Assembly: GCA_001303465.1 (NCBI GenBank)
Contig: LJTR01000004.1
Span: forward strand, 1 to 39,007
DNA: 39,007 nucleotides
Origin: Phycisphaerae bacterium SG8_4
GTDB lineage: Bacteria; Planctomycetota; Phycisphaerae; Sedimentisphaerales; Anaerobacaceae
Direction: 5' to 3'
The position numbers and the translations under genes are program-made. Of the stretch, positions 27,560 through 35,258 are shown in pieces. Position 1 is the first letter of the stretch. Each line of letters opens with the position of its first letter. The notes under the pieces were generated by a model. It was not told the origin of the DNA. It made no database searches and worked only from the letters and a program-made list of their open reading frames with translations.

Positions 27560-28417
27560 TCAAGGACAGCACAGAAAGAACAAATATGCGAACGGCGCCG
27601 CCACCAAAGGCGAATCGATGATATCCAGCACGCCGCCGAAGCCGGGTACTTTTTGCCCCGAGTCCTTTTGCTCGGCGTCTCGCTTGATCATGGACTCGAC
27701 CAAATCGCCCATCTGTCCGATGAACGCGAAGCACAGACCGAAAACAATCGCCAACCACCAGGGCATTATACCACAACCTGTCGCAAAGCCAATAGCAACA
27801 AACGCAGCGGCCACCATGGCGCCGCCCATTCCTTCCCAGCTTTTTCCAGGGCTGATCTTGGGTGAGAATTTGTGTTTGCCCAACAGAGTACCGATTGCAT
27901 AAGCACCTATGTCCGCACATTTTACGACAAACACAAACATGAGCAAATGCCACAGTCCGAACTCAATTCTGATTGTCACACAGAAGCTGCTCAGAAGTCC
28001 AAGATACGCGATTGAAAAATAGGTTGCTCCGCAATTGGCCAGAACAGCTTTGGTTCCATAGCTTATGTACTGGTGTAGAGGCAGCGCGAGGAGGGCAAAA
28101 GCCGAGAGCAAAAGAACATACCTTTCAAGCGAAAAAGCGATAAGCTGCGGCCAATAGCGAGCCGTCCCCAGTAGAATCGAGGTTATGATCGAAACGGGCA
28201 GAAAGATCTTAAGGCCGTTTGCAGCGGCGAGGCGGGACATTTCGATTTGAGCCGGGATTGCCAGAAGAGCGACGAGCAGGCAGAAAATCGTTCCCTGGAT
28301 AGCCTTATCGTCAGCTACCGAGCTTGTGATAGAGCCGTCGATCCATCCGTCGAAAATGACAACAGCGACAAAAGACGCCGTCATCAGTGTTCCAAAAAGC
28401 AACCTGTGTCTTACCAT
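27560..28417 (-). CDS. cdsA: Phosphatidate cytidylyltransferase
   Basis: 285 residues, a polytopic inner-membrane enzyme making CDP-diacylglycerol from phosphatidate and CTP, the precursor of phosphatidylglycerol; the PgpA encoded further upstream acts later in that branch. The signature is near the C-terminus: GDLVESMIKRDAEQKDSG followed by PGFGGVLDIIDS, where the family usually has GGxLDRxDS. SPKISPGKSWEGMGGA precedes it. At least six hydrophobic spans are evident. It is placed between uppS and the phoH-like gene, a common uppS-cdsA pairing. Confidence 0.93.
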   Translation of the reverse strand: MVRHRLLFGTLMTASFVAVVIFDGWIDGSITSSVADDKAIQGTIFCLLVALLAIPAQIEMSRLAAANGLKIFLPVSIITSILLGTARYWPQLIAFSLERYVLLLSAFALLALPLHQYISYGTKAVLANCGATYFSIAYLGLLSSFCVTIRIEFGLWHLLMFVFVVKCADIGAYAIGTLLGKHKFSPKISPGKSWEGMGGAMVAAAFVAIGFATGCGIMPWWLAIVFGLCFAFIGQMGDLVESMIKRDAEQKDSGQKVPGFGGVLDIIDSPLVAAPFAYLFFLCCP

Positions 28418-28478: not shown

Positions 28479-29246
28479 TCACGAATCTGCCTTAATCGTT
28501 CCAAAGCGTCGGGTCCGTTTTGCATAAGCCGTGATCGCTTCTTCCATAGATGCCTTTGTGAAACTCGGCCAAAGTGTTTTCGTGACGTAAAACTCACTGT
28601 ACGAAACCTGCCAGAGCAGAAAGTTGCTTATTCTCATTTCGTTTGCGGTGCGTACCAAAAGATCGGGATCGGCCAGGGCGGCTTCGTACATGTGATTGCC
28701 GACACATTGTTCATCGATATCTTCGAGGCGAAGTTTGCCTTTCTTGTGCTCTTGCGCGATCTTCTTGACCGCATCCACGATCTCCGCTCTGCCGCCATAG
28801 TTTAATGCAAGGGCAAGTCTCATGCCGGTGTTGGCGGTTGTCAAGTCCATCGTATCTACAAGGTCATTTCGCAACGTAGCCGGAAGTCCGGTCATCCGAC
28901 CGAGGTGAAGCAACTTTACATTGTTTCGCATCAGCGTAGGCCTGATGTTGACAAGGTGCTCGGAGTGGATATGCATAAGGGCGTCGATTTCGGCCCTGGG
29001 TCTTTTCCAATTCTCCATACTGAAAGAATACAGGGTCAGAGTTTCGATGCCCAGGTCGACGCAATGCAGAGCTATTTCTTCAATTATTCGTGCACCCTCG
29101 CGGTGGCCCTCGACGCGCGGCAGCGATCTTTGTTGCGCCCACCGCCCGTTGCCGTCCATGATTATTGCGATGTGACGGGGTATCTGTTCGAGGGTCAGCC
29201 CCAGGCGTGAGGCGGTTACAGCGAGTTTCTCTTCAAAGGTTTCCAT
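28479..29246 (-). CDS. uppS: Isoprenyl transferase (undecaprenyl diphosphate synthase type)
   Basis: 255 residues. A cis-prenyltransferase that extends farnesyl diphosphate, supplying the lipid carrier for peptidoglycan and other wall polymers. The catalytic Asp31 lies in IAIIMDGNGRWAQQR, followed by GHREGARIIEE and TLYSFSMENWKRP. The late RTANEMRISNFLLWQ replaces the usual RTSGE, with Glu and Arg kept. It precedes cdsA, separated by about 60 nt, and follows a large palindromic element after purA. Confidence 0.95.
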   Translation of the reverse strand: METFEEKLAVTASRLGLTLEQIPRHIAIIMDGNGRWAQQRSLPRVEGHREGARIIEEIALHCVDLGIETLTLYSFSMENWKRPRAEIDALMHIHSEHLVNIRPTLMRNNVKLLHLGRMTGLPATLRNDLVDTMDLTTANTGMRLALALNYGGRAEIVDAVKKIAQEHKKGKLRLEDIDEQCVGNHMYEAALADPDLLVRTANEMRISNFLLWQVSYSEFYVTKTLWPSFTKASMEEAITAYAKRTRRFGTIKADS

Positions 29247-29408: not shown

Positions 29409-30683
29409 TCATCTGTTCATTGTCTGACTGCGTTTGGGCCCCACGCCGACGGTGGTGATCGGTGCCGCAATATATTCTTCGATCCGGCGCACGTAGTCTT
29501 GGGCGTTGACGGGCAAATCCTTAAAATCCTTTACCTCAGTAATATCCTCATCCCAGCCGGGCACAGTTTCGTAGAGGCCCTTGGCCTGTGATAGCCTGTC
29601 GTCATTGGCCGGGAAAAAGGATGTTTCTTTCCCATTGATTTCATATGCCCTGCAGATACTAAGCTCTTTGAGACCGCTGAGCGTATCCAGGTGCATCATT
29701 GCTACAGAATCGATCGCGCCGATTTTAACCCCGTAGGATACGGCTACCGCGTCGAACCAGCCGCATCGGCGCGGACGGCCCGTAGTCGTGCCGTATTCGT
29801 TGCCCTTTTCACGGATGTATTGACCCGTCTCATTGTCCTGCTCGACGGGGAATGGGCCGGCGCCGACCCTTGTTGTGTAGGCCTTGACCACGCCGATGAA
29901 TTCATCGACCAGTTTGGCCGGCACACCGCAGCCTGCCGGCATTCCGAGCGCGCTCGAGTTCGAGCTGGTAACAAACGGGAATGTCCCGTGGTCAAGATCC
30001 AGCAGCGAGCCCTGGGCGCCTTCGAAAAGAATTGACTTGTCTTCGGCTATTGCTTTGTGCAGAAATTCGGTCGTGTCTGTTATGAACGGTACAATCCTCT
30101 GGGCGTGCAGCTTGCACTTCTCAAATATTTCACCGGCGTCTATTGACTCGGCGCCATAAAGGGCGGCAAAGATCTTGTTTTTATGCTCGACGATCTTCTG
30201 CAGTTTGGCTTTGAGTCTTTCGAGATCTCTCAAGTCACCCACGCGGACGGCGTAACTTCTGCCGACCTTGTCGGCATAGCAGGGACCGATTCCCCGGATG
30301 GTTGTACCGATCTTGTTCTTGCCGAGCGCCTCTTCACGCAATTGGTCCTCTTTCTTGTGGTAAGGCAGAACGACGTGGGCGTTTTCGCTTATCAGCAGCC
30401 GGCCGTCCAGTGAGATACCTTTTTCGCCGAGTGTGTCAATTCCTTTTATCAGCACATCAGGGTCGACGACCACGCCGTTGGTGATAACACAAATCGTCTG
30501 GGGCCTCACCGAGCCGCTGGGCAGAAGGTGCAGGGCAAACCGGTTGTCCCCCACGATGACCGTGTGGCCGGCGTTGGCGCCGCCGCCGTATCTGACGACG
30601 ATATCGCTGTTCTCGGCAAGGATATCGACGACTTTGCCCTTGCCTTCGTCGCCCCACTGTAATCCGACAACGCAATAATTCAT
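29409..30683 (-). CDS. purA: Adenylosuccinate synthetase
   Basis: 424 residues, normal length. It joins IMP and aspartate using GTP, the first committed step to AMP. The N-terminal P-loop-like CVVGLQWGDEGKGKVVD has the catalytic Asp, then YGGGANAGHTVIV with the catalytic His. TTIRGIGPCYADK, EGAQGSLLDLDHGTFPFVT and GRPRRCGWFDAVAV (binding of IMP and of guanine) are all present. It sits in the minus-strand run after two unknown genes, starting 70 nt past the small membrane protein gene. Confidence 0.98.
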   Translation of the reverse strand: MNYCVVGLQWGDEGKGKVVDILAENSDIVVRYGGGANAGHTVIVGDNRFALHLLPSGSVRPQTICVITNGVVVDPDVLIKGIDTLGEKGISLDGRLLISENAHVVLPYHKKEDQLREEALGKNKIGTTIRGIGPCYADKVGRSYAVRVGDLRDLERLKAKLQKIVEHKNKIFAALYGAESIDAGEIFEKCKLHAQRIVPFITDTTEFLHKAIAEDKSILFEGAQGSLLDLDHGTFPFVTSSNSSALGMPAGCGVPAKLVDEFIGVVKAYTTRVGAGPFPVEQDNETGQYIREKGNEYGTTTGRPRRCGWFDAVAVSYGVKIGAIDSVAMMHLDTLSGLKELSICRAYEINGKETSFFPANDDRLSQAKGLYETVPGWDEDITEVKDFKDLPVNAQDYVRRIEEYIAAPITTVGVGPKRSQTMNR

Positions 30684-30753: not shown

Positions 30754-31239
30754 CTATGTGATTTTCGCCACTATATGGTCCAGGACGGCGCCAAGGTTAT
30801 CATACGTCCTGTCACTTAATTTGCGATCGATCTCTTTGCCGCTTTTGTCTTTATATGTGAAGACAAAAAAACCCTTCTTATCGAAGTAGGTCCTGTCTAC
30901 CTTTTCTATGGAATCATACGGGATTCTATCGCTGTCGTTGAAGACAAGCTCGTTGTCGTCGGCGATCAGTTTCCTGCTCTTTATCGAGAGCAGGTAGACC
31001 CAGAGCAGGACCGCCGCACCCACAAAGAACGGTGGCGACTTCTGGTTGAATACCATTGTGGGCGTGGGCTTACCGTCATTGTCAAGAACCTGCTCCTTGT
31101 AGAAGCTGTAACGCTTCGACCATTCGTACTTGCTCAGATAGCCGTCGTAGGCGAAGACAATTGCCACGGCCAGACAGATGCCGATGGAAATTCTAAAATT
31201 GTCCTTCTTGAATTTGCTTATAGGTGCCTCGATAGCCAT
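30754..31239 (-). CDS. Small membrane protein of unknown function
   Basis: 161 residues, not recognised. Two hydrophobic spans are visible, around residues 17-32 (SIGICLAVAIVFAYDGYL) and 70-85 (PPFFVGAAVLLWVYLLS). The C-terminal part (about 90-161: ELVFNDSDRIPYDSIEKV, then a conserved-looking GFFVFTYKDKSGKEID) alternates polar and hydrophobic residues and resembles bacterial PH-like membrane-associated domains; this is only a likeness. It starts 20 nt after the stop of the 31260-32057 gene, suggesting one transcript with it and with the kinase-like protein. Confidence 0.75.
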   Translation of the reverse strand: MAIEAPISKFKKDNFRISIGICLAVAIVFAYDGYLSKYEWSKRYSFYKEQVLDNDGKPTPTMVFNQKSPPFFVGAAVLLWVYLLSIKSRKLIADDNELVFNDSDRIPYDSIEKVDRTYFDKKGFFVFTYKDKSGKEIDRKLSDRTYDNLGAVLDHIVAKIT

Positions 31240-31259: not shown

Positions 31260-32057
31260 CTACGTTAACCGTTTTTGAGCGATTGTTTCGATCAAAGGCT
31301 GGGCAAAGTTGGGGATTATCTTTTCAACCATCAATTCCTGGGCCAACTGGCATTGGGCCGTGAAAGATTCTGATGGGTCGAATTTCTCAGCGGTTTTCGG
31401 GTACTGGCGCACTGTCAGGGACAGACTTATTGCCTCATCCTCGCTCTGGCTCTTTCTGCCGGGCTCGAAGACGCTTGTCTTGGACTCGACGCAGATCCGC
31501 CCCTGCGTCCGGTCGTCTTCCGAAAGCGCCATCACCACGGCAGGTGAAAAACCGATCGGCCTGGCGCCGGGCAAATCCAGCAGACATTTAAAGGCGCTCT
31601 GGCTCAGCAGAGCCTCGGCGATCACTTCATCGTGACTGCCGGAATACTCGAAATCCATGGCGAAAGTAACGTCCAGCGAATCGATGTCGAGATTGCTTAC
31701 GCTTAGCATATATGGAATCAGTTCGAGCACCAGTCTGTGCTGCGAGCAGGCCATCTCCATATCCGACGGGTTGACCAGCCCGGAACTGACCCGGTCGGTC
31801 TCGATGCTGACCCATCGGTATTGGCCGTGGCTGCGGTCCTCTTCCAGGCAGTATTCGTTGTTTGACCGCCGGTAGAAACAACCCATCGAAGGAAACTGCC
31901 TTCGGATTCGTTCGAAGAAGGACAGGATGGTATCACGCTCGGTAGGCAGATCCAACTCGGTGTTTACACACATGTCGAGGTAGAAATCATCGCAAAGTGA
32001 ACTAAAACTATTCAGCGTCATCGCAGAAAAACTCTCCACGGCAGATCCCGGGAACAT
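31260..32057 (-). CDS. Cytoplasmic protein of unknown function
   Basis: 265 residues, not recognised. It has no signal peptide or membrane span, is acidic, and shows no known catalytic motif. The first 90 residues are predicted-helical in look (FFERIRRQFPSMGCFYRR), followed by alternating strands (YRWVSIETDRVSSGLVNP, LDVTFAMDFEYSGSHDEV). The start at 32057 is supported by AGAGGA about 12 nt upstream; an internal ATG at residue 13 is an alternative. It lies between the kinase-like fusion gene (80 nt upstream) and the small membrane protein gene, so the three are likely co-transcribed and may act together. No function can be proposed from sequence. Confidence 0.75.
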   Translation of the reverse strand: MFPGSAVESFSAMTLNSFSSLCDDFYLDMCVNTELDLPTERDTILSFFERIRRQFPSMGCFYRRSNNEYCLEEDRSHGQYRWVSIETDRVSSGLVNPSDMEMACSQHRLVLELIPYMLSVSNLDIDSLDVTFAMDFEYSGSHDEVIAEALLSQSAFKCLLDLPGARPIGFSPAVVMALSEDDRTQGRICVESKTSVFEPGRKSQSEDEAISLSLTVRQYPKTAEKFDPSESFTAQCQLAQELMVEKIIPNFAQPLIETIAQKRLT

Positions 32058-32137: not shown

Positions 32138-34630
32138 TTATTTTTCCACAATTTTCTGCTGAATCATGAAGTTCTCAGGCAACTTTATTTCCGTGATCAT
32201 TGCCCCAACAACAGAAAGAATCGCGAAAATGAACATCCGCCATACGCAACTGGTCACAATCGAGCTGTTGTAGCCCGACATTGCCGAAACTGCCGCGTAG
32301 AGCATGCCGGTCGAGGCGCCGCAGGCCGCAGCGGCAGCAATGCGTTTGCCCAGGGCCGCTCCGCCGCAGCCCAGAGTCAGGGCCGCACCGCAGAAAAGCG
32401 GCGCCAATACTGCCAGCGGCCAGATATCTCTGAGACTCGGCAAGCTGTCGAATTTCCCCATATAGATATAATCGGCCAGTCCCAAAACCGCCGTAGTGCC
32501 AAAAACACACAAAGCGGCGTGCCAGTAGCGAGGCTCTATCAACTCCCGTGCTTCGGCTCTCTTTCGCATCCGACGCCGTATGGTCAAAGGCCAGTTATAG
32601 AAGAGGCAAAATACCCAATGCTCCAGAAGCGCACCCCGCTCGCCGAACACGGGAACAATATGCACCGCCTCTGTCGCCCAGTGGGCCGCCATAAACCGCG
32701 CCATCGCCGGATAGTGATAAGTCATCTGTATCGGAAACGCCAGATAGCCTACGTACTTGAAGTAGCTCAGGAACAGGGCGATGTTGTAGTCTTTGAAGCT
32801 GCGATCGTGGATCGCCAGAATTGTAGTGTACAGCCCGCGACAGAAAGAGCCCGGGGATATCGGCACAACCTGGAACAGGCCAATGATGCCCAGTCCGATC
32901 GCCCAGGCGCCCGGATCGTTGCGGTGCGTAAGATAATAGATCGCCGCAACTGCAACAGAGACTATCTGCGTCACCGGTAATGTGAGCAGATGGACCACCA
33001 GACTGATCAGATATCGCTGGACGTATGGTTCTTCAAGGTGAGAGAGGATCGTCTCGGCGTCGTCATCTGCGAGTATGTGCTTTGTCTTGCCCTCCTGCAC
33101 CATATCTCGAAGCCATTGTTCGCGAAGGTGACGACTAAAGTAGAGCCTAACGGGCCTGACAAAAATGTATATTAGCTTTTCTCTTCTGAAGTTGTTGTCG
33201 GTCAGAAACCTGTGCAGACCGGCGGGCAGAATCGACAGCGGCAGATGTCCCAAGAATCGGCCAATCGCCCCCGCCACCGTGAGCGCGTGCTTATCGTCAA
33301 GCCGTCCGGCTCTGTGCCAGACGGTGACCTTTTCGGCTACCCGCGCCCGCATCGCTCGGAGGAAATAGCCCCAGCTGCCTAGCATCGCTCCATAGTGTCG
33401 GCGCCAATCGGCCCGGCCCCAGATCCGGCGGACAAGCTTGCCCAAAAATGGTATCAGCCCGACAGTCAAGAACAACAGCGTTTGAGTCGTGCTGTTCCTG
33501 AATCTCCACTCATGATGTTCATCGACCAGATTACGTACGCGCCAGCCGGTTACAGCGCTATCGAGCATTGTCAACCACAACTGTCTGCTGTAGAGCAGCC
33601 GAACATGATTGTGTGTAACATCCGGAATCGAGTTGCGATATATTTGCTCGGCGGCCTTCAACTCCTTGAGCATCTCGGCGGTGTCGGCAAACTCATCGCC
33701 GCCTGTGCGCACGAAGTCTTCCAGCTTGGCAATGCTGCCCCGGTCGAACTGCACGAGTGAGCCGCGCCCGATGCCTTTTATTATCAACTTGAAATCGCCC
33801 GGGCTCATTGGCAGAAACGGCAGCAGCGCGAGTCCGGCTCTAAAATCAACGGCCACCAGCCCTCGGGCCGGATCATCGTCGTTTCCGTGTCGCTTCAGCG
33901 CGTTCGGCTGGCTCTTGCACGTCGACCACTCGTACTGCCTGGCAAATTCGTACGCTCCCATCTCGTGCAGCAGCTCGACGAACTCCGACATGAACCTCAG
34001 TTTCGCGCGATACTCCGGCGATCCTACCTTCTGCTCATCTACGGTTTTTCCTCGCCTCCATTGCCTCAGCAGATCCAATCGGTCGTCAACTTCAAGGCGC
34101 CACGTCCGTCCTTCGACCCATTCCCTCAGCTCCCCGCAGCCGCCGAGCTTGTGGTCTATGAACGTACCATATATATCCACGACCGCATTCTCGTCGCCGA
34201 ACCTGATCTTTGCTCCCCGCCGGATGAATTTTTGCCAGATGCCGCCCGCACGTGCCGCCGCCGGATTGACCTGGAGCTGGAATGGCCCCTGAAATCCGCC
34301 CCAATATAGAAGATCGCGGAACACCCGGGAGAAATTGGACGGCGGGATGAGGATCTTGATCGCTCGGATTTGACCAACCTCAAGGCCTTCTATTTTTCGG
34401 TTAATCCCCGCAATTCTTACGCGATATACCTGCCCGGCGAAGCCTCCGCCCACAAACTTCTCCACGACCAGGTTCACCTTTGCGGGCCTGGTATCGGCGA
34501 AGCCGGTCACGTCATAGGTAAGTTCCGTGCCCGCGTCATAATGGCTGATCCGCATCGGCCGATATAATTTCGCAGCACGAAATCTCGCTTCAAGCTCTTT
34601 GCAAACCTCGACAGAATATTCTTGCGACAT
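32138..34630 (-). CDS. Kinase-like domain fused to a large membrane domain
   Basis: 830 residues, not a family I can name. The N-terminal third resembles a eukaryotic-type kinase: Gly-rich loop VEKFVGGGFAGQVYRV (57-71), AIKIL with Lys92 in the VAIK position, a possible catalytic-loop region LHEMGAYEF (221-229) followed by QPNALKR (Asn243), and VAVDFRAGL with Asp262 in the DFG position. The usual HRD aspartate is not evident, so it is a divergent or inactive kinase. From about residue 384 the protein is a membrane region with at least eight hydrophobic spans (for example ISLVVHLLTLPVTQIVSVAV and WAIGLGIIGLFQVVPISPG). It lies just downstream of a conserved upstream element and leads a probable three-gene unit with two unknown genes. 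Confidence 0.8.
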   Translation of the reverse strand: MSQEYSVEVCKELEARFRAAKLYRPMRISHYDAGTELTYDVTGFADTRPAKVNLVVEKFVGGGFAGQVYRVRIAGINRKIEGLEVGQIRAIKILIPPSNFSRVFRDLLYWGGFQGPFQLQVNPAAARAGGIWQKFIRRGAKIRFGDENAVVDIYGTFIDHKLGGCGELREWVEGRTWRLEVDDRLDLLRQWRRGKTVDEQKVGSPEYRAKLRFMSEFVELLHEMGAYEFARQYEWSTCKSQPNALKRHGNDDDPARGLVAVDFRAGLALLPFLPMSPGDFKLIIKGIGRGSLVQFDRGSIAKLEDFVRTGGDEFADTAEMLKELKAAEQIYRNSIPDVTHNHVRLLYSRQLWLTMLDSAVTGWRVRNLVDEHHEWRFRNSTTQTLLFLTVGLIPFLGKLVRRIWGRADWRRHYGAMLGSWGYFLRAMRARVAEKVTVWHRAGRLDDKHALTVAGAIGRFLGHLPLSILPAGLHRFLTDNNFRREKLIYIFVRPVRLYFSRHLREQWLRDMVQEGKTKHILADDDAETILSHLEEPYVQRYLISLVVHLLTLPVTQIVSVAVAAIYYLTHRNDPGAWAIGLGIIGLFQVVPISPGSFCRGLYTTILAIHDRSFKDYNIALFLSYFKYVGYLAFPIQMTYHYPAMARFMAAHWATEAVHIVPVFGERGALLEHWVFCLFYNWPLTIRRRMRKRAEARELIEPRYWHAALCVFGTTAVLGLADYIYMGKFDSLPSLRDIWPLAVLAPLFCGAALTLGCGGAALGKRIAAAAACGASTGMLYAAVSAMSGYNSSIVTSCVWRMFIFAILSVVGAMITEIKLPENFMIQQKIVEK

Positions 34631-34763: not shown

Positions 34764-35258
34764 CTACCTGACGATAAACAACTTTATGCAGACCTGCAAA
34801 ACAATCCAGGCAAATACACCCGCCAGCAAATCATCTGCGAGGATGCCCCAGCCTTCGGGCAACTTTTCGAGTTTGCGTATGGGCCAGGGCTTGGCGATAT
34901 CGAACACTCGAAAGAGCACAAAGCCCGCCGCACTTACGGCCCATATTTGCCCTGTCGAGGCCGCTCCCAGGGCCAAAAACGGGCTGGCCAGAAACGTTAT
35001 CGCCTGGCCCGCGAATTCGTCGGCGACAACTTCGCCGGGATCGTCCTTTCCAGTGGCCGCAATCGCCGCGGGGGCAAATTGCACGCAAACGACCGAACCG
35101 GCCAGAGCAAGGGCCGCCATTGCGATTGACACTATCGCCGGCGACGTGCGAAAGTGGCACATCAGCGCAAAGACAATCGCCGGCGGCAGCGAGCCCCACG
35201 TCCCGGGAGCTAACGGCAGCCTGCCAAGGCCAAAACAGGATGCGGCCAATCTCTTCAT
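34764..35258 (-). CDS. pgpA: Phosphatidylglycerophosphatase A
   Basis: 164 residues, normal size. The membrane enzyme removes phosphate from phosphatidylglycerophosphate, giving phosphatidylglycerol; CdsA encoded in the same run makes the earlier precursor. Conserved blocks are GLGRLPLAPGTWGSLP, the acidic DPGEVVADEFAGQ and DDLLAGVFAWIVLQ, with several hydrophobic spans between. It is the first gene of the long minus-strand run and diverges from the Nramp-like gene across a 162-nt region. Confidence 0.95.
   Translation of the reverse strand: MKRLAASCFGLGRLPLAPGTWGSLPPAIVFALMCHFRTSPAIVSIAMAALALAGSVVCVQFAPAAIAATGKDDPGEVVADEFAGQAITFLASPFLALGAASTGQIWAVSAAGFVLFRVFDIAKPWPIRKLEKLPEGWGILADDLLAGVFAWIVLQVCIKLFIVR

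Follow-up and report, generated by a model that had tools for sequence, protein, structure and literature searches.

KTM, a kinase-like membrane protein of Phycisphaerae, as a candidate non-homologous replacement for UppP/BacA

The window (the whole 39,007-nucleotide stretch of DNA that was analysed) encodes a previously unnamed protein, for which the name KTM (kinase-like plus transmembrane) was coined in the present analysis. Comparison of gene order and of distribution among genomes strongly supports the view that KTM stands in for UppP. Because it is found almost only where UppP is missing, KTM is probably a non-homologous replacement for UppP/BacA (undecaprenyl-pyrophosphate phosphatase) that performs, or is essential to, the conversion of undecaprenyl (polyprenyl) pyrophosphate (Und-PP) to undecaprenyl phosphate (Und-P). 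Und-P is required for making the wall and glycans, and UppP is the usual enzyme by which this carrier lipid is recycled. We infer Und-PP as the substrate of KTM, its catalytic residues, nucleotide binding by its head and the sidedness of the reaction.

The KTM family and its partnership with PgpA

The KTM gene and the neighbouring genes that serve as reference points are as follows.

32138..34630, minus strand: KTM gene, encoding an 830-aa polytopic membrane protein with a kinase-like domain (ORF, conserved family)
34764..35258, minus strand: pgpA (phosphatidylglycerophosphatase A), immediate upstream partner of KTM (Pfam PF04608, E 3e-38)
31260..32057, minus strand: o265, conserved 265-aa ORF, function unassigned, next in the block (ORF, synteny)
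30754..31239, minus strand: o161, conserved 161-aa ORF, function unassigned, same block (ORF, synteny)
29409..30683, minus strand: purA, common syntenic anchor (profile match, synteny)
28479..29246, minus strand: uppS, makes Und-PP, the presumed substrate (ORF, synteny; identified by its sequence motifs and gene context)
27560..28417, minus strand: cdsA, common syntenic anchor (ORF, synteny; named from sequence and neighbourhood)

The KTM ORF was confirmed on the minus strand as a frame of 830 residues with an ATG start codon. Given that 35 of 61 related genomes carry full-length members (54-79% identity) with open frames, the ORF represents a conserved family and is not a chance reading frame. 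KTM was found in 90 of the 397 genomes of the class and in 13 of 392 genomes sampled phylum-wide, and its matches in public databases carry the labels Sedimentisphaerales, Phycisphaerae and Planctomycetota. Searches with the whole protein against Pfam, NCBIfam and PDB sequences, together with a profile search, gave no match, and no Pfam family was returned at E ≤10. An NCBIfam match to invert_tail (E 0.024) and a PDB profile match to isochorismatase (E 0.2) were discarded as falling below a sensible threshold. No report of KTM was found in a literature search.

The neighbourhood was as described in the first-pass annotation, with PgpA upstream of KTM, PurA downstream and the UppS and CdsA ORFs beyond it. 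The connection to the cell envelope that this arrangement had hinted at is supported. In loci from the window's taxonomic order, pgpA was directly upstream on the same strand with a short gap in all cases measured (19/19). In distant families KTM and pgpA are convergent neighbours (e.g. G078, G121 and G203), and in two distant genomes (L080 and L083) KTM continues at its C-terminal end into a fused PgpA, which Pfam recognises with E-values of 3.9e-28 and 1.8e-33, respectively. Given that three arrangements (upstream, convergent and fused) join the two proteins, a functional link between KTM and PgpA is argued.

This constant partnership, fusion included, would also suit a reading that we consider unlikely, in which the chemistry is done by PgpA or a PAP2 protein, KTM acts as a scaffold, a flippase or a binder of Und-PP/Und-P, and UppP is thereby dispensable. 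PGP and C55-PP can indeed both be handled within one enzyme family: Aquifex LpxE rescues Escherichia coli deficient in dephosphorylation of either (PMC6581854). However, PgpA was detected in 335 of the 397 genomes of the class, UppP genomes included, and its presence therefore does not explain the swap.

Two further features of the locus were observed. Neither o161 nor o265 belongs to a Pfam family, and both stay between KTM or UppP and purA in both types of genome. Directly after KTM, a radical-SAM-like protein of ∼480 aa with a CNLKCLGCYA motif is present in six loci (L094, L097, L102, L108, L109 and L111).

Exchange and mutual exclusion of KTM and UppP/BacA

Many of the relatives without KTM have a PgpA ORF of 446-490 aa. 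Nine such ORFs were read, and in these PgpA forms one protein with an entire UppP/BacA domain bearing the motifs TEFLPVSSSGH and PGISRSG; the UppP part of the fusion is recognised by PF02673 (e.g. in G320). The consequence for gene order is clear from a member of the window's genus (G001), in which PgpA-UppP is followed by o265, o161, PurA, UppS and CdsA, whereas the order in the window is PgpA, KTM, o265, o161, PurA, UppS and CdsA. Fusions of ∼450 aa were seen in many Sedimentisphaerales-like genomes (L113-L118, L121, L122, L124 and L131-L133), and several further families in the class encode PgpA and UppP as separate adjacent genes. A literature search found no report of a PgpA-UppP fusion, nor of the loss of UppP in Phycisphaerae.

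The distribution of the two proteins among the 397 genomes of the class, most of which are metagenome-assembled and many incomplete, was complementary: KTM was present in 90 and BacA in 287, with both in 2 (65 expected) and neither in 22. Co-occurrence is thus rarer than chance (Fisher p 3.4e-64). When the sample was restricted to high-quality genomes (≥90% complete and ≤5% contaminated, n = 283), 278 carried KTM or BacA, a single genome carried both (p 5.6e-51) and five carried neither. A second set, drawn from the GTDB family of the window, gave a similar picture, with BacA absent from 12 of 12 KTM-positive genomes and present in 4 of 6 KTM-negative genomes.

Both cases of co-occurrence within the class are weak, one being a remnant and the other a far paralogue, and they help the case for exclusion. 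In G401, an intact PgpA-UppP lies beside an open KTM remnant of 250 aa, located directly upstream (L130:3287-4039) with neither kinase domain nor membrane core; this is apparently the trace of a switch. All that represents KTM in the second genome, G262, is a short, highly divergent paralogue (L129). Outside the class, and counting against replacement, three genomes (G468, G576 and G582) hold a long-type KTM of ∼39-42% identity and also BacA, and here the role of KTM may be additional or different.

Switching between the two states has occurred repeatedly. A PurA tree of 32 loci required 12 changes between KTM and BacA on the best tree and at least 7 on well-supported branches; its rows were picked as KTM or BacA loci, such that the tree gives a number of switches but no further test of exclusion. 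Eight genera contain both KTM and BacA genomes. Given the mixed genera and the 7-12 switches on the tree, kinship does not account for the exclusion. The PgpA tree, which is poorly resolved, showed no clear clustering by partner, and the idea that PgpA is swapped together with its partner as a cassette is accordingly not backed.

The recurrence of switching at one locus is what would be expected if the pgpA locus were a hotspot of exchange and the exclusion its by-product, with an unrecognised Und-PP phosphatase encoded elsewhere in KTM genomes. The five high-quality genomes with neither protein also fit this explanation, which we nevertheless regard as very unlikely: exclusion holds where UppP lies away from the pgpA locus (e.g. 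in G012, with BacA on another contig) and in families with convergent or fused KTM-PgpA, and a hotspot alone would not eliminate UppP from other parts of the genome.

The presence of other enzymes for the step was also considered. Both BacA and PAP2 proteins were absent from six KTM genomes of 99% completeness (G046, G050, G054, G126, G137 and G276), and some other KTM genomes do hold PAP2 proteins. PAP2 as a general stand-in for UppP is thereby ruled out for these six and possible in others. The absence of PAP2 from the six also tells against a binder or scaffold role for KTM alongside a PAP2 enzyme, as does the finding that candidate flippases of the DedA type occur alike in the KTM and BacA groups; with no clear difference between the groups, DedA proteins are uninformative about the swap. 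Transferases of the MraY/WecA type, which require Und-P, numbered three or more in each of 18 KTM genomes tested (18/18), and in G054 uppS lies inside the KTM operon (L107). Dephosphorylation of Und-PP is essential in wall-making bacteria, and in a recent review BacA and PAP2 proteins are the only ones assigned to this step (PMC12826051). Given that both families are absent from the six genomes, that the users of Und-P are kept and that only those two families have been named, KTM is the outstanding candidate.

Kinase-like head and membrane domain of KTM

KTM was divided into three regions by sequence alignment and structural modelling.

33629..34630, minus strand: kinase-like domain, residues 1-334 (AlphaFold secondary structure and pLDDT, Foldseek, invariance)
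32522..33628, minus strand: core membrane domain, residues 335-703 (alignment, conservation, model pLDDT 84.9, no PDB fold match)
32141..32521, minus strand: C-terminal transmembrane extension, residues 704-830 (comparison with distant members)

The N-terminal domain had been described as a divergent kinase-like domain, and the motifs named at that time are all in place: the glycine-rich loop VGGGFAGQVY at residues 60-69, the AIK lysine at 90-92 and DFR at 262-264, with HRD absent. Conservation was assessed in an alignment of 64 KTM sequences, which extends from 79% down to ∼35% identity. Residues G61, G62, G63, G66 and Q67 of the loop (GGGxAGQxY), together with K92, N243 and D262, are identical in 64 of 64 sequences; the invariance of K92, N243 and D262 had been proposed as a check on the kinase assignment. 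The catalytic-loop Asn (N243) and the DFG-type Asp (D262), which are Mg ligands in kinases, are thus kept throughout, and the kinase DFG is DFR in 60 of the 64. By contrast, position 238, the site of the HRD Asp five residues before N243, is occupied by Cys, Trp, Ala, Leu, Met or Gly and varies freely, in agreement with the earlier observation that no clear HRD aspartate could be found.

The AlphaFold model of full-length KTM (mean pLDDT 87.6) places strand 49-62, the glycine-rich loop and strand 67-76 ahead of strand 88-93 with K92 and helix 123-144; strands 153-159 and 164-170, helix 205-224, a loop to N243 and strands 244-247 and 258-260 then lead to D262. This predicted order of secondary structure supports a kinase-type arrangement. 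Foldseek comparison of the full-length model with the PDB gave GSK3b, VRK1 and choline kinase as the best matches (probability 1.00 for the top matches, E 1.3e-3), and the first-pass reading of the domain as kinase-like is supported by both results. Neither of the two outcomes that had been named beforehand as refuting that reading, a model lacking a kinase-like bilobal fold or free variation of Lys92 and Asp262 among homologues, was observed. TM-scores to whole kinases were ∼0.3-0.4. That these scores are low and the E-values modest follows, in part at least, from the use of all 830 residues as the query. Given the modest E-value and the low TM-scores, the head is called kinase-like and not a proven kinase. 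It resembles the protein-kinase superfamily (GSK3, VRK and choline kinase) in the arrangement of strands, glycine-rich loop, Lys, Asn and Asp, which follow in the same order, and differs in the missing HRD Asp, in DFR for DFG (60/64) and in having no detectable sequence similarity.

The remainder of KTM had been noted as a large membrane domain of no recognisable family, and this holds against Pfam, NCBIfam and the PDB. Hydrophobic segments lie near residues 382-400, 544-562, 579-607, 616-634 and 705-817, and residues 401-535 form mainly cationic amphipathic helices. Invariant residues of the core in the 64-sequence alignment are S595 and R598 (within PGSxxRG), Q635, E664, E670 and N679; H671 is near-invariant. 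A model of the membrane domain (pLDDT 84.9, pTM 0.61) found no fold match in the PDB with Foldseek (best E 1.9), with neither PAP2 nor UppP, whose fold is an inverted repeat with re-entrant helices, among the matches. Homology of the domain to UppP was likewise rejected, the hhalign probability of 1.5% being not significant; the sole stretch aligned, QxxPISPGSxxRG of KTM with QxxAIMPGISRSG of UppP, was not counted as evidence. By sequence comparison, residues 704-830 are dispensable, since they are missing or replaced in distant members and PgpA takes their place in L080 and L083. A PgpA hidden in this extension was considered and rejected, given a non-significant profile comparison and no PF04608 match in the KTM of the window.

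The combination of a kinase-like fold that lacks the HRD base with a membrane domain of no known relatives would fit the earlier proposal of a signalling or pseudokinase-gated protein. In its strict form, a pseudokinase-gated regulator of the envelope that is not directly involved in Und-P metabolism, this idea is given very little probability indeed, as there is no reason to expect a regulator in precisely those genomes that lack UppP, across at least seven independent switches at one slot. The behaviour of KTM at the pgpA locus is that of a UppP/BacA replacement, and what may survive of the proposal is gating by the head.

Proposed reaction and comparison with known phosphatases

If KTM does replace UppP/BacA, binding and dephosphorylation of the lipid pyrophosphate would most likely fall to conserved polar side chains in the membrane domain (R598 of PGSxxRG, Q635, E664, E670, H671 and N679). 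The head, cytoplasmic and without the HRD base, would bind a Mg-nucleotide through the glycine-rich loop, K92, N243 and D262, and would gate or couple the reaction of the membrane domain in a nucleotide-dependent manner; this is favoured over catalysis by the head. The invariant lipid-facing residues would suit a carrier of Und-PP or Und-P as well as a phosphatase. As a counterpoint to the favoured phosphatase, such an enzyme has no evident need of a nucleotide-binding head.

Two further possibilities assign the chemistry to the head. In one, which we judge rather improbable, KTM would be an energy-conserving recycler of Und-PP, in which the head moves the terminal phosphate onto ADP or another acceptor, or nucleotide binding enables action at the cytoplasmic leaflet. 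Phosphate-to-phosphate transfer would suit the head because the base for a hydroxyl acceptor is lost and every nucleotide and Mg ligand is kept. Und-PP is used as a phosphate donor by LpxT, which passes the phosphate to lipid A (PMC2229476, PMC7356881). If this were true, Und-PP would be dephosphorylated inside the cell, as opposed to outside in the known cases. In the other, KTM would be an ATP-dependent lipid kinase that forms Und-P from undecaprenol after complete dephosphorylation. The invariant nucleotide-site residues would accommodate such an activity, which is scarcely credible given that the catalytic Asp required for phosphorylation of a hydroxyl is missing in all KTM members; moreover, a dedicated enzyme for full dephosphorylation was not identified.

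As a putative replacement, KTM shares with UppP/BacA (PF02673) the slot next to pgpA, a near-perfect complementary distribution and a polytopic membrane character, and its PGSxxRG loosely resembles the PGxSRS motif of UppP. It differs in being approximately three times longer, in its kinase-like head and in the lack of a PF02673 hit, of a significant profile match and of a structural match. With the PAP2-type Und-PP phosphatases (YbjG, PgpB, BcrC and LpxE; PF01569) it would share the proposed substrate, whereas a Pfam scan found no PF01569 match in KTM, and PAP2 is distributed independently of it.

If the favoured reading is correct, KTM would constitute a third, unrelated family of Und-PP phosphatases, one that joins a kinase-like head to a membrane domain whose fold matches none known. 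It would fill a hole in the cell-wall pathway of Planctomycetota and explain the survival of genomes without BacA and PAP2. The presumably cytoplasmic nucleotide-binding head opens to testing the question of why Und-PP dephosphorylation is confined to the outer face, and the repeated swaps at one locus are a natural experiment in non-orthologous displacement.

A more sensitive search revealed short paralogues of 520-627 aa, also kinase-like plus membrane proteins, in other families of Planctomycetota. Those at L129:1929-3692 and L141-L152 have an LGxGRSGxVF loop, a WQAGKGNPVA loop and WIDLESGVPALFP. They are like KTM in the order of the two domains and at the positions of R598, FPxQ/YPxQ, P660 and E670-H671, and differ in length, in changes at N243 and E664, in having WQAGKGNPVA as the catalytic loop and in always being accompanied by BacA. 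Given that BacA was present in 12 of 12 checked genomes with a short paralogue, exclusion is a property of the long type only. At the other extreme of length, the KTM proteins at L073:4135-7782 and L074:7485-11147 carry a C-terminal extension of ∼500 aa, in which additional membrane helices are accompanied by a domain weakly resembling GDSL/SGNH proteins (Pfam E 0.02).
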